This document shows positions 31,198 to 37,616 of a stretch of 50,798 nt of DNA, one piece after another. Each line of letters begins with the position of its first letter. Position 1 is the first letter of the stretch. The stretch comes from Brasilonema sp. CT11 (GTDB lineage: Bacteria > Cyanobacteriota > Cyanobacteriia > Cyanobacteriales > Nostocaceae). The notes under the pieces are model-generated. The model saw nothing but the letters and a program-made list of their open reading frames with translations. It was not told the origin of the DNA and ran no database searches. Made by a program: the position numbers and the translations under genes. The DNA lies in the NCBI RefSeq assembly GCF_017982655.1, contig NZ_JABXYX010000032.1:1-50798 (forward strand), given 5' to 3'.

Positions 31198-32019
31198 ATG
31201 AAAAGAAGACAACTTTTTCCCTTTATCAGTATAGTAGTTGCTAGCTTGTTGTTGGTAGTTGGTTTGCGATTGTTTGATCCATCTGCTGTGGTAGCACAAT
31301 CCAAGGTTAACCTCCTCGTATCTGCAGCCGCCAGTCTTAAAGATGGGATGGAGGAAATCAAGACTTCGTACCAACAAAGTAAACCAAATGTCAACCTGAG
31401 TTACAACTTTGGTGCTTCCGGTGCTTTACAGCAACAGATAGAGCAAGGTGCACCTGCAGATGTCTTTATCTCAGCTGGGAAAAAGCAAATGGATGCCTTG
31501 GAACAAAAGGGGTTATTAGTTCAAGGAACCCGTAGTAACTTGGTAAACAACAGTCTGGTCTTGATTGTGCCTAGTAATTCTACAGGTGTCACCAGCTTCA
31601 ATACCCTCACAGACGCCAAAGTCAAGAAAATTGCGATCGGCGAACCCAGAAGCGTTCCTGCAGGTCAATACGGTGAGCAAGTTCTAGAAAAATTGAACCT
31701 TTTGCAGCAAGTCAAACCCAAACTTGTTTACGCCAACAACGTGCGTCAAGTGCTGGCATCTGTGGAAAGCGGTAACGCTGATGCTGGTCTTGTTTATGCA
31801 ACGGATGCCAAAATCTCTAATAAGGTAAAAGTGGCAGTTGTCGCTGATGACAAGTCCCACTCCCCGATTGTTTATCCAATGGCAGTGCTGAAAAGTAGTA
31901 AGAATGTTGATGCTGCCAAGGAATTCGTCCAGTTTTTAACCAGCGAGCCACCTCAGACTGTACTCAAGAAATATGGATTTATCGTCCAACCAGCAAAAGT
32001 ACCTGCAATGAGCCGTTAA
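31198..32019 (+). CDS. modA: Molybdate-type ABC transporter substrate-binding protein
   Basis: From ATG 31198 the protein is 273 residues with a signal peptide (FPFISIVVASLLLVVGL, cleavage near VVAQS). The mature part starts VNLLVSAAASLKDGMEEI and contains NFGASGALQQQIEQGAPADV, GEPRSVPAGQYGEQ and DAGLVYATDA, the ModA pattern for periplasmic binding of molybdate or tungstate. The frame extends to 31123, but those 25 codons carry no signal. modB and modC do not follow; instead the gene abuts a group II intron remnant and a convergent HAD gene. It lies 1.4 kb before the molybdate-type regulator and 3 kb before nifH. Confidence 0.92.
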   Translation: MKRRQLFPFISIVVASLLLVVGLRLFDPSAVVAQSKVNLLVSAAASLKDGMEEIKTSYQQSKPNVNLSYNFGASGALQQQIEQGAPADVFISAGKKQMDALEQKGLLVQGTRSNLVNNSLVLIVPSNSTGVTSFNTLTDAKVKKIAIGEPRSVPAGQYGEQVLEKLNLLQQVKPKLVYANNVRQVLASVESGNADAGLVYATDAKISNKVKVAVVADDKSHSPIVYPMAVLKSSKNVDAAKEFVQFLTSEPPQTVLKKYGFIVQPAKVPAMSR

Positions 32020-32088
32020 ACCCTGGAGTTTAGTTATTTAGTTTTAAAAACGTAAGAATTCAGCATTTGTTGAGTCAGAAGTGAGCCA

Positions 32089-32157
32089 GAGCGGACGGCA
32101 AACTTTCATGTCCGGTTCTGAAGCCGAGCATGGGGGGTGACTCCCATGCTTAGGTTC
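32089..32157 (+). ncRNA. Group II intron 3' remnant (domain V/VI-like)
   Basis: GAGCGGAC at 32089-32096 pairs with GTCCGGTTC at 32110-32118 to form a short hairpin resembling group II intron domain V. It is followed at once by a long stem (AGCATGGG with CCCATGCT, 32127-32150) like domain VI. The order, the GAGC/GGTTC ends and the TGAAGCCG linker match the 3' ends of many cyanobacterial group II introns. No intron-encoded reverse transcriptase is present, and the upstream 70 bases do not extend the fold, so only the 3' tip remains. Domain V is shorter than the usual 34 nt. Confidence 0.5.
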
Positions 32158-35087: not shown

Positions 35088-36056
35088 ATGTCCGTTGACG
35101 AAAAAATTAGACAAATAGCATTCTACGGTAAAGGCGGTATCGGTAAGTCCACCACCTCTCAAAACACCCTCGCCGCTATGGCAGAAAAGGGTCAGCGCAT
35201 TTTGATTGTGGGATGCGACCCGAAAGCTGATTCCACCCGTTTGATGCTCCACAGCAAAGCTCAAACCACCGTACTTCACCTCGCTGCTGAACGGGGCGCA
35301 GTAGAAGATTTGGAACTCGAAGAAGTGATGCTCACCGGCTTCCGTGGTGTGAAGTGCGTAGAATCTGGTGGTCCCGAACCTGGTGTCGGTTGCGCTGGTC
35401 GTGGTATTATCACCGCCATCAACTTCTTAGAAGAAAACGGTGCTTACCAAGATGTGGACTTCGTTAGCTACGACGTGTTGGGTGACGTTGTCTGCGGTGG
35501 TTTCGCTATGCCTATCCGTGAAGGTAAGGCACAAGAAATCTATATTGTGACCTCTGGTGAAATGATGGCGATGTACGCTGCTAACAACATCGCTCGTGGT
35601 ATTCTCAAGTATGCTCACTCTGGTGGTGTGCGCTTGGCTGGTTTGATTTGTAATAGCCGCAAAACTGACCGGGAAGACGAACTGATTAGCACACTAGCAT
35701 CCCGATTAAGCACCCAGATGATTCACTTCGTCCCCCGTGACAACATCGTGCAACACGCTGAGTTACGCCGGATGACTGTGAACGAGTATGCACCTGATAG
35801 CAATCAAGGTAACGAATACCGTGCATTAGCAGACAAGGTTATCAACAATAAAATGCTTGCCATTCCTACACCCATTGAAATGGAGGAGTTAGAAGAGTTG
35901 TTGATTGAATTCGGTATTCTCGAAAGTGAAGAAAATGCCGCGAAACTGATTGGCGTCGCCCAAGCTCAAGAAGAAGCCGAGAAAAAGCAAGAAGATCTTG
36001 AAGGCGAAGCGTTAGAAGCATTGAAAAAAGGCAACGTAGAAGTTGTTAAGAAATAA
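35088..36056 (+). CDS. nifH: Nitrogenase iron protein (additional copy) with charged C-terminal extension
   Basis: The 322-residue protein has the P-loop GKGGIGKS (14-21), the [4Fe-4S] cysteines Cys102 (GVGCAGRG) and Cys136 ([10 protein letters not shown]), Arg105 of the ADP-ribosylation site and switch motif YDVLGD. NifH is the ATP-dependent electron donor to dinitrogenase and also serves in cofactor synthesis. The core ends near [11 protein letters not shown]; a tail of about 30-40 residues follows ([20 protein letters not shown]), longer than the roughly 295 residues usual in cyanobacteria. No nifD or nifK follows; a nifE-like gene does. With the Mo-type regulator upstream, a VnfH-like role is possible, but sequence alone cannot decide. 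Confidence 0.93.
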
Positions 36057-36293
36057 GTGCGCTACAAAGCACTGGTGAAGATAGAGATGTGGAGGTAGTC
36101 TGAATGGCTGATGTATAGTTCTACGATTTCTAGGTTTTCCGTGTCAGCATGAATCTGTAAATGTTCGCGCGGTAAAACGATTAGTTTAGTTTTTTGTTTT
36201 CTCCTTTTATTGGTTGGTTACATTTTAGGGAATGGGAAATCGCTCTTTTCCATTCCTTTTTTTTCCCGATGTTTCTAGATAATTTCTACTTGC
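36057..36293. other. Spacer between nifH and the nifE-like gene
   Basis: The 237 bases contain no frame of note. GGGAATGGGAAA and TTTCCATTCCTTTT (36227-36260) form an inverted repeat followed by a T run, so a terminator or attenuator for the nifH transcript probably sits here, and the nifE-like gene may be expressed less than nifH. Confidence 0.55.
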
Positions 36294-37616
36294 ATGAAAA
36301 GTGAAGACGTATTTAATAAAAACCCAGGTCACAAAACGCAGAATCGAGAATCTGTCCTGAGAGAAGGTCAAGAAGATTGTGCTTTTGATGGTGCAATGCT
36401 TACTTTAGTACCGATTACCGATGCTGCTCATTTAATTCACGGGCCAAGCGGTTGCATCAACAATTGTTGGGGAAATCGCAGTAGTCTCTCTTCTAATTCC
36501 ATACTATATAAAGCTCGTTTTACCACTGATATGGATGAAAACGATATCATCTTCGGTGGAGCAAAAAAGCTATACAACGCCATTATAGAAACGCAAAGAC
36601 GCTACAAACCTGCTGCGGTATTTGTCTATTCTACCTGCGTTTCTGCCCTTATCGGTGATGACCTTAATGGAGCCTGTACAGACGCTGCTGTGCAAACAGG
36701 AACTCCGATTATTCCTGTAGACTGTCCCGGATTTGTTGGTCGTAAAAATCGCGGTATGCGCATCGCTGGTGAAGCTTTGTTGGAACACGTTATAGGCACA
36801 GCTGAACCAGACTTTACTACACCTTATGATATTAACCTTATCGGTGAATCCAACATTGCTGCAATGTGGAACATTCTACCGCTATTTGAAAAATTAGGTA
36901 TCCGAGTCCTCTCCAAAATTACGGGTGATACTCGCTACAAGGAAGTTTGTTATGCCCATCGTGCCAAGCTAAATGTAATCACCTCATCCATTGCACTGCT
37001 TAAAATGGCAAAAAAGATGGAAGAACGCTTTAGTATCCCCTACATTCAAGAGTGTTTCTACGGTATAGAAAACATCAATCAAAGCTTACGGAATATTGCT
37101 GCTAAGTTGGGAGACTCCGACTTACAAGAACGTACAGAAAAGTTTATTGCCTTTGAAACTAGTGCTTTAGAAGAGAAACTTGCTTTTTATCGCACTTCTG
37201 TGCAAGGCAAACGTATTGTTATTGATACACAAGAACTGAAAAGTTGGTCAATTATCTCGGCAGCTCAAAAATTAGGGATAGAAGTTATCCCTATCAGCGC
37301 TGTTAAAAACAGTCAGGAGGATAAAGCAAGAATTCAAAAGTTACTGGGTAAGGATAGCATTATTCTCCAACAAAATACTCCAGAGGAAATTCTACAGATA
37401 ATTCACGAAAATAAAGCGGATATGTTAATTACAGGAGAACGCTATCAATACACCTCTGTTAAGGGTGAGATTCCTTCATTAGATATAAAGGCGGAACAAA
37501 ATCATTCAAATGCCGGCTATACAGGAATTTTAGAAGCGGCACAAAAACTGTATGCAACTCTTACTAGCCCTGTATGGAAACTAGTACACAAACCCGCCCC
37601 GTGGGAAAACAGATGA
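36294..37616 (+). CDS. NifE-like nitrogenase cofactor scaffold protein
   Basis: The 440-residue protein clearly belongs to NifE/VnfE rather than NifD: EDCAFDGAMLTLVPITDAAH, IHGPSGCINNCWGNRSSLSS, FGGAKKLYNAII, VYSTCVSALIGDDL and PDFTTPYDINLIGESN. The three cysteines that hold the scaffold [4Fe-4S] cluster are present (about Cys29, Cys54, Cys115). The conserved Cys of the cofactor-site segment (HRAKLNVxxCS in typical NifE) appears as Ser231 here (HRAKLNVITSSIALL). NifE works as NifEN in cofactor maturation, but no nifN is near. The N-terminus is shorter than usual. It lies 237 bases after nifH and is probably part of the same Mo-responsive unit. Confidence 0.88.
   Translation: MKSEDVFNKNPGHKTQNRESVLREGQEDCAFDGAMLTLVPITDAAHLIHGPSGCINNCWGNRSSLSSNSILYKARFTTDMDENDIIFGGAKKLYNAIIETQRRYKPAAVFVYSTCVSALIGDDLNGACTDAAVQTGTPIIPVDCPGFVGRKNRGMRIAGEALLEHVIGTAEPDFTTPYDINLIGESNIAAMWNILPLFEKLGIRVLSKITGDTRYKEVCYAHRAKLNVITSSIALLKMAKKMEERFSIPYIQECFYGIENINQSLRNIAAKLGDSDLQERTEKFIAFETSALEEKLAFYRTSVQGKRIVIDTQELKSWSIISAAQKLGIEVIPISAVKNSQEDKARIQKLLGKDSIILQQNTPEEILQIIHENKADMLITGERYQYTSVKGEIPSLDIKAEQNHSNAGYTGILEAAQKLYATLTSPVWKLVHKPAPWENR

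Follow-up and report, generated by a model that had tools for sequence, protein, structure and literature searches.

Introduction

What role does a paralogue of the nitrogenase assembly protein NifE play when its gene stands behind a molybdenum (Mo)-type regulator and an Fe-protein gene? The question is raised by a locus of the cyanobacterium Brasilonema sp. CT11, at positions 31198 to 37616 of a stretch of 50,798 nucleotides (the window) on contig C248 of an assembly of 8.79 Mb (411 contigs, 96% complete). We propose, with a probability of roughly 0.6, that the locus is the vnfR2-vnfH operon of the cyanobacterial vanadium (V)-nitrogenase regulon with an attached gene, nifE2, whose product most likely is no maturase of the iron-molybdenum cofactor (FeMo-co), because the cysteine anchoring the precursor of the cofactor is missing from it. 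The three genes concerned are:

33426-34556, plus strand: vnfR2, XRE helix-turn-helix plus PBP_like domain (PF01381, HTH_3, and PF12727 at 220 bits, Pfam cut-offs passed)
35088-36056, plus strand: vnfH (nifH2), Fe protein (TIGR01287, 461 bits against a cut-off of 394)
36294-37616, plus strand: nifE2, NifE paralogue (TIGR01283, 519 bits against a cut-off of 505)

NifE2 has lost the cysteine of the L-cluster

NifE2 of the window is homologous over nearly its whole length to NifE of the Azotobacter vinelandii NifEN complex (413-430 bits to NifE chains in the PDB, where 3PDI, 9IAN and other entries represent it). In that complex Cys250 is a ligand of the inner-site L-cluster (PMC13031127), structures of 2026 caught NifEN taking up the cofactor precursor with Cys250 holding it (PMC13128457, PMC13031127), and the NifE substitution C250A abolishes FeMo-co formation (PMC13128457). 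The window protein differs in having Ser231 (codon TCA, 36984-36986) aligned to Cys250 and an alanine at the position of Gln419, and in that no NifN is encoded adjacent to it. We compiled 52 NifE2 proteins: that of the window, those of 48 further genomes, two encoded by second copies and that of Nostoc sp. C057. Cys250 is replaced in 51 of them (by Ser in 47, Phe in two, Asp in one and Ala in one) and is present only in genome G066, while all 30 controls retain it (13 NifE1, nine NifE3 and eight VnfE, these being loci at hand and not a census).

The O-cluster ligands are shared with the A. vinelandii protein. C29, C54 and C115 of the window correspond to Cys37, Cys62 and Cys124, the first being found in 51/52 NifE2 (one row starts inside the gene) and the other two in 52/52; NifN2, the partner encoded at most of these loci, has Cys44 in 45/45 and Ser41 in 44/45. 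The residues of the cofactor pocket are kept unevenly among the 52 proteins: Lys252 in 45, Gln419 in 27, Lys357 in 13, Arg70 in nine and Lys160 in eight. A set of 130 columns is invariant in 22 NifE1 and NifE3 plus A. vinelandii NifE. Among the 51 NifE2 other than that of G066, 19 of these columns differ in half or more of the proteins, 111 are kept in more than half and 55 in all. Four of these columns (E209, C250, G333 and N403) are changed in 51/51, and G333, V334, G400 and N403 in 82-100%. The changed fraction is 0.73 at the invariant cofactor-site columns (160, 164, 250 and 357) and 0.17 at random invariant columns (P 0.0009, with four residues only and without residues 44, 70, 252 and 419, which vary among the controls).

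A preliminary description of this DNA had supposed that the locus lends a cofactor scaffold to an enzyme encoded elsewhere. This part of the proposal is not supported, because the NifE is devoid of the Cys250 ligand needed for FeMo-co formation (PMC13128457). The alignment suggests, with 51 losses in 52 proteins, a job other than cofactor building.

The NifE2 clade and its cassette

In a careful tree (39 rows with 18 of the 52 NifE2; VnfE, NifD, VnfD, 34 NifE2, one NifE1 and one NifE3 were left out) the NifE2 proteins make one clade with ultrafast bootstrap and SH-aLRT supports of 100/100. The Cys-bearing protein of G066 branches inside it; this gene (L078:8415-9800) also has no nifN2 beside it and is divergent at other pocket positions. 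In a quick tree VnfE was far from NifE2, but long branches were joined there, VnfE being placed with NifD. NifE2 lies inside the NifE clade, as a clade of its own. The window protein is 65% identical to the NifE1 fragment of the host and reaches 73 bits with the ChlB/BchB model TIGR01278, under its cut-off of 490. The cyanobacterial vnfEN genes resemble nifE2 in belonging to a Mo-regulated set and to the NifE/NifD superfamily; they differ in that VnfE retains Cys250 and is distant in the quick tree, and in the host they are found on another contig, C297.

The usual arrangement in heterocystous cyanobacteria is a four-gene cassette, VnfR-nifH2-nifE2-nifN2. VnfR is upstream in 31 of the 32 cassette loci with enough upstream sequence (in two pieces in L127), the exception being that of G197 (L143). 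Among the 51 NifE2 loci besides the window, NifH2 accompanies 49 and NifN2, of at least 200 residues, 45. NifH2 was not found at G188 and at the second copy of G173, both at contig ends, nor NifN2 at three Brasilonema loci (G092, G061 and G134), G066, G007 and G036; at the last two nifN2 is partial or the contig ends. The cassette of Nostoc sp. C057, on plasmid p057_H, has modB, modA, molybdopterin-binding proteins and ModD at 2.5-13 kb. Since relatives carry a linked nifN2, this gene was probably lost from the Brasilonema locus. A search for its relic near the window nifE2 gave only a 32-residue match inside the nifE2 end, which we read as a frame overlap and discarded. The place expected for nifN2 (37803-40667, 3' of nifE2) is occupied by an uncharacterised open reading frame (ORF) of 204 residues with no Pfam match, a transposase-like ORF recognised by inspection, and a T5orf172/MUG113 protein.

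NifE2 is present in 49 of 217 genomes of the family, 48 by score and G066 by its neighbourhood. The count uses a 794-bit cut, so low-scoring NifE2 elsewhere could be missed; separation from NifE1 by profile score alone proved imperfect, as the NifE2 of G108 scored 752 bits when left out and the best NifE1 790. VnfD occurs in 22 of the 217 genomes and together with NifE2 in 16, that is, NifE2 accompanies 16/22 genomes with VnfD versus 33/195 without it (Fisher p 1.4e-7, counting as without it G061, which has a vnfDG end at a contig edge). The 33 of 49 NifE2 genomes devoid of VnfD are an upper bound, as drafts can hide the gene; among the 12 carriers of at most 10 contigs (rounded counts) five have VnfD. 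Nevertheless, three near-complete genomes of 3-5 contigs (G092, G074 and G059), with all their component-1 genes listed, encode NifE2 and no V-nitrogenase, their other component-1 genes being Mo-nif, NifN2 (not in G092) and chlorophyll-type homologues only. NifE2 is thus associated with V-nitrogenase, though not strictly tied to it.

The regulator and Fe protein correspond to vnfR2 and vnfH

In Anabaena variabilis ATCC 29413 the VnfR2 gene lies upstream of vnfH, with a single promoter for both, and the vnfH transcript is processed; ava4025-vnfDG is subject to Mo-dependent repression by VnfR1 and VnfR2, NifH1 and VnfH are interchangeable, and VnfH serves a V-nitrogenase encoded elsewhere (PMC4284476). 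The window regulator has the N-terminal helix-turn-helix and PBP_like domains of VnfR1 and VnfR2, its gene is directly upstream of the Fe-protein gene, and its best named relatives are three Brasilonema records with 93-97% identity. NifH of the window falls in an H2 group with VnfH of the A. variabilis-like genome G216 (7.1 Mb, five contigs), apart from NifH1, in a quick tree of 26 rows (SH-aLRT 93, below the 95 mark), and scores 207 bits with the ChlL/BchL model TIGR01281, under its cut-off of 345. From synteny with the A. variabilis-type locus and from this tree group the pair is identified as vnfR2 and vnfH. Both loci also have an operator-like element upstream of vnfR2 and a fused vnfDG elsewhere in the genome. 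In G216 the VnfR2-vnfH order recurs, but there is no nifE2 after it, only nifN2 in three short fragments, whereas nifE2 of the window is intact; the window locus and the vnf structural genes of the host are on different contigs.

VnfR2 would presumably be a Mo-dependent repressor here too, by analogy, and the operon Mo-repressed. The sensor and Fe-protein part of the locus is therefore already known from A. variabilis, and the linked sensor-reductase layout that had been called unusual is a published one (PMC4284476). Two suggestions of the preliminary description fare better: that the set is metal-responsive finds backing in the homology to VnfR2 and in the shared operator-like element, and that it lends a reductase in the clade and synteny of a VnfH orthologue.

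Several genomes have a further nifH copy behind a VnfR-type element (L207, L208, L205, L209, L216, L184 and L217:7897-9888); a VnfR fragment was matched in six of these seven loci, L207 being the exception.

A putative control element shared with the vnf genes

Upstream of vnfR2, before nifH and between nifH2 and nifE2 the following features were noted:

33240-33287, plus strand: putative VnfR operator/promoter, with two GCAA-N6-TnGC half-sites (the first imperfect, the second at 33262-33275) and then a TATGnT-like box
34900-35087, plus strand: structured leader before nifH, weak (z -1.98, folded 34900-35090)
36227-36258, plus strand: hairpin of GGG(A/G)ATGGGA type with a T run, between nifH2 and nifE2

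The element is conserved upstream of VnfR in the cassette loci. A matrix was derived from the upstream regions of 27 cassettes out of 29 (all but G074 and G216); the 27 source regions owe their own scores to this construction, while hits before other genes and the random control are independent. In the host the matrix finds a site about 0.8 kb upstream of the ModA-like/vnf operon (C306:8337, minus strand, 32 bits) and two more (C306:10905 and C75:12017), and in G216 sites upstream of ava4025, vnfR1 and vnfR2. No hit of at least 12 bits was seen on the host stretches with nifHDK (C118), nifEN (C357) and vnfEN (C297), and none of at least 9 bits in 200 kb of random sequence. With a stricter pattern and at most two mismatches the host has four sites (one on C248, two on C306 and one on C75), all on contigs carrying these genes; three mismatches add five, two of them before VnfR genes. 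In G092, without V-nitrogenase, the single site at up to two mismatches precedes the cassette, and the reversed pattern matched neither in the host nor in G092. Another palindrome, TACCAA-N5-TTGGTA, seen in 12-13 of the 27 upstream regions, was dropped on account of its absence from Brasilonema.

One of the C306 sites belongs to a second copy of the element and first codons of vnfR2 (L021:10900-11200), 91% identical over 301 bases to window 33235-33535, which breaks off beside ORFs judged transposase-like by inspection. The vnfR2-vnfH operon may once have lain in the vnf island, as in HT-58-2, and later have left it. A hairpin similar to that of the window was found in nine of 14 nifH2-nifE2 gaps checked, four of the nine being of Brasilonema; it could be an attenuator or a transcript stabiliser.

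Nitrogenase genes elsewhere in the host

The host has 13 component-1 (Oxidored_nitro) matches in all, and four proteins of NifH/ChlL type over the whole model. Comparison with G216 led to these assignments:

C118: nifHDK
C357: nifE (cut by the contig end)-nifN-nifX
C306: ModA-like gene, NifE3, NifX, fused vnfDG and vnfK
C297: vnfEN (93% and 86% identical to the genes that follow vnfK in G216)
C75: second VnfD and a divergent Fe protein
C324 and C214: ChlB and ChlN-ChlL, respectively (Chl names from inspection of the sequences)

An enzyme encoded elsewhere, as had been anticipated, thus exists. The only nifN-type genes in the list are nifN1 (C357) and vnfN (C297). Two other assignments were considered and rejected: the D/K-like pair of C297 as a novel nitrogenase-like enzyme, given its identity to vnfEN, and the NifE-like protein of C306 as VnfE, which is on C297. 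The latter gene belongs to a third type, NifE3, paired with NifX inside the vnf operon (L021:4243-6361, minus strand); NifE3 retains Cys250, but the position of Gln419 is occupied by His in 9/9. A lone NifE3-type gene (L085:11878-13290) is found on plasmid pNe_5 of Nostoc edaphicum, with an alkanesulfonate monooxygenase, an arylsulfatase and a dioxygenase as neighbours.

The second VnfD, on C75 (L025:1487-4177, minus strand), has 896 residues. Its tail contains sequence repeats and a CAAD domain, together with a partial match to VnfG (35 bits), unlike the other VnfD proteins checked, 5/5 of which end in a full VnfG. The gene follows a VnfR-type element and stands in line with the genes of the divergent Fe protein and of a nitroreductase, and with a cytochrome oxidase operon.

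Flanks of the window locus

Upstream of the operon there are two further genes:

31198-32019, plus strand: modA, molybdate-binding protein (TIGR01256, 230 bits against a cut-off of 62.5, frame intact)
32156-32812, minus strand: hydrolase of the haloacid dehalogenase (HAD) family (PF13419/PF00702), between modA and the regulator

The preliminary description had listed a modA-like gene, a regulator of XRE/molybdate type, nifH and a nifE-like gene, had noted the absence of nifD, nifK and nifN, and had not mentioned the hydrolase; ORFs and family models agree with it on the four genes, whose reading frames are all intact. As for the absences, no nifD, nifK or nifN was found on C248, because the NifE-like protein is the sole Oxidored_nitro match there (one of the 13 of the whole host genome). 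The window modA is the best modA match of a host genome that has further modA-like genes, and L075 and L076, two Brasilonema relatives, retain it upstream as well. Parted from the regulator by the opposite-strand hydrolase gene, it probably does not belong to the operon. All three Brasilonema relatives examined (L075-L077) have the order regulator-nifH-nifE, so the arrangement is not due to chance. Scanning the window region for repeats turned up nothing of relevance.

Selection on nifE2

The ratio of nonsynonymous to synonymous substitution rates (dN/dS) of nifE2 is 0.14-0.27 in 6/6 pairs within Brasilonema and 0.15-0.38 in seven pairs of other genera, that of nifE1 being 0.095-0.115 in four pairs. 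The nifE2 frame is intact in four Brasilonema genomes; it is truncated in UFV-L1 (L030), and HT-58-2 (L033) has a start fragment only. Given the low dN/dS on one side and these truncations on the other, nifE2 is maintained by selection in some lineages and has been lost from others. At the HT-58-2 locus (L033:2261-3491) vnfD and vnfK are reduced to short ORFs, while the frames of vnfR, vnfH and NifE3 are long.

A model for the operon and its alternatives

In the model that we favour, when molybdate is plentiful VnfR2 would sit on the paired GCAA-N6-TnGC element and keep the operon repressed. Upon exhaustion of Mo the operon would open, and VnfH would feed electrons to the V-nitrogenase encoded on C306 and C297 and, if needed, to NifDK. 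NifE2 would be made alongside VnfH, in smaller amounts if some transcripts stop at the nifH-nifE hairpin. With its O-cluster ligands, and presumably its interface for NifN, intact but the anchoring cysteine for the precursor of the cofactor gone, it would work as an O-cluster protein with the Fe protein and a NifN, which would be NifN2 in most genomes and NifN1 or another partner in Brasilonema.

Several observations weigh against this model. The NifE2 of G066 has the cysteine; the window protein passes the NifE equivalog cut-off (519 versus 505 bits) and retains R70, K160 and K357 of the pocket, so some residual cofactor handling by it is conceivable. Loss of the N-terminal receiving cysteines was rejected as a proof of lost function: VnfE lacks them too (0/8), and therefore their absence in NifE2 is uninformative alone. 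On the side of regulation, reversed controls match by chance at three mismatches (three in G059, one in G074 and three in G216), as well as at two mismatches once each in G161, G176 and G188, and sites with three mismatches therefore mean little alone; moreover, expression of nifE2 may be held down by the terminator-like hairpin that precedes it. Finally, the gene is truncated in UFV-L1 and nearly gone from HT-58-2.

The alternatives differ in what they make of the missing ligand. Serine might ligate a metal cluster weakly, and NifE2 would then still be a cofactor scaffold in which Ser or another group holds, for instance, a FeV- or FeFe-type intermediate when Mo is scarce. That the replacement is mostly Ser (47/52), that each of 111 of the 130 NifE-invariant columns is conserved in a majority of NifE2, with 55 conserved throughout, that NifE2 and VnfD co-occur above chance and that the window protein exceeds the NifE cut-off speak for it; we nevertheless regard it as unlikely, in view of the inactivity of C250A for FeMo-co (PMC13128457), of the Phe, Asp and Ala also found at position 250, of separate true VnfEN whose VnfE retains Cys250, and of the near-complete genomes G092, G074 and G059 with NifE2 and no V-nitrogenase. 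Somewhat less probable is a sharper form of our model, compatible with it, in which NifH2 and NifE2N2 would constitute a cofactor-free, ATP-dependent reductase of a still unnamed substrate, induced by Mo starvation, similar to the dark-operative protochlorophyllide oxidoreductase (DPOR). DPOR (ChlL-ChlNB) combines an Fe protein with a component 1 that has a [4Fe-4S] cluster but lacks a nitrogenase cofactor (PMC3464626). The cassette joins its own Fe protein with alpha- and beta-type subunits, it keeps the O-cluster cysteines and Cys44/Ser41 of NifN2 while the cofactor ligand is gone, and it is present where V-nitrogenase is absent. On the other hand, NifE2 is a NifE by sequence and clade, not near the DPOR subunits (73 versus 490 bits with TIGR01278), nothing points to a porphyrin substrate, no conserved substrate-linked neighbour was identified (neighbours were matched against nitrogenase-related queries only), and Brasilonema keeps nifE2 without nifN2.

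This last fact is in favour of two further readings. NifE2 could act as a competitor, sequestering NifN, NifX or the Fe protein at Mo starvation and so throttling FeMo-co assembly and leaving NifB-co to VnfEN; the 65% identity to NifE1 would permit pairing with NifN1, and the control element is shared with the vnf operon, but a matching NifN2 is encoded at 45/51 of the loci besides the window and near-complete genomes devoid of V-nitrogenase retain the cassette. It is the most doubtful of the proposals. A decaying relic of the vnfR-nifH2-nifE2-nifN2 cassette, retained in Brasilonema by linkage only, would explain the nifE2 genes without nifN2 at the loci examined, the truncation in UFV-L1, the fragment in HT-58-2 and a dN/dS above that of nifE1. 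Set against the intact frames of four genomes, the dN/dS values of the six Brasilonema pairs and the retained O-cluster cysteines, this reading has a real though minor chance of being right.

Implications

A NifE devoid of Cys250 was not found described in the available parts of the literature on NifE/NifN paralogues and on a second vnf-linked nifEN in cyanobacteria, surveys included. A conserved vnf cluster with many uncharacterised genes has been reported (PMC6645180), and the cassette genes may be among them. Within the literature searched, NifE2 and the four-gene cassette are probably new, and our best guess is that NifE2 is not a normal maturase. With considerable reserve we suggest that NifH2-NifE2-NifN2 could be an undescribed Mo-repressed two-component system of heterocystous cyanobacteria, a reductase pair without cofactor site in which the Fe protein and the O-cluster would either reduce a partner or substrate yet to be named or gate FeMo-co assembly when Mo is scarce.

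Nearly every member of the NifE2 clade has discarded Cys250, and the clade has kept the O-cluster ligands, its own Fe protein and usually a NifN, behind a Mo-type repressor; hence it allows a direct question, namely what a nitrogenase-type complex does without its cofactor. It also carries a warning, as the number of nifE, nifN and nifH genes in a cyanobacterial genome can overstate its functional FeMo-co machinery, and the VnfR-type element offers a handle to read the Mo-starvation regulon of these cyanobacteria.

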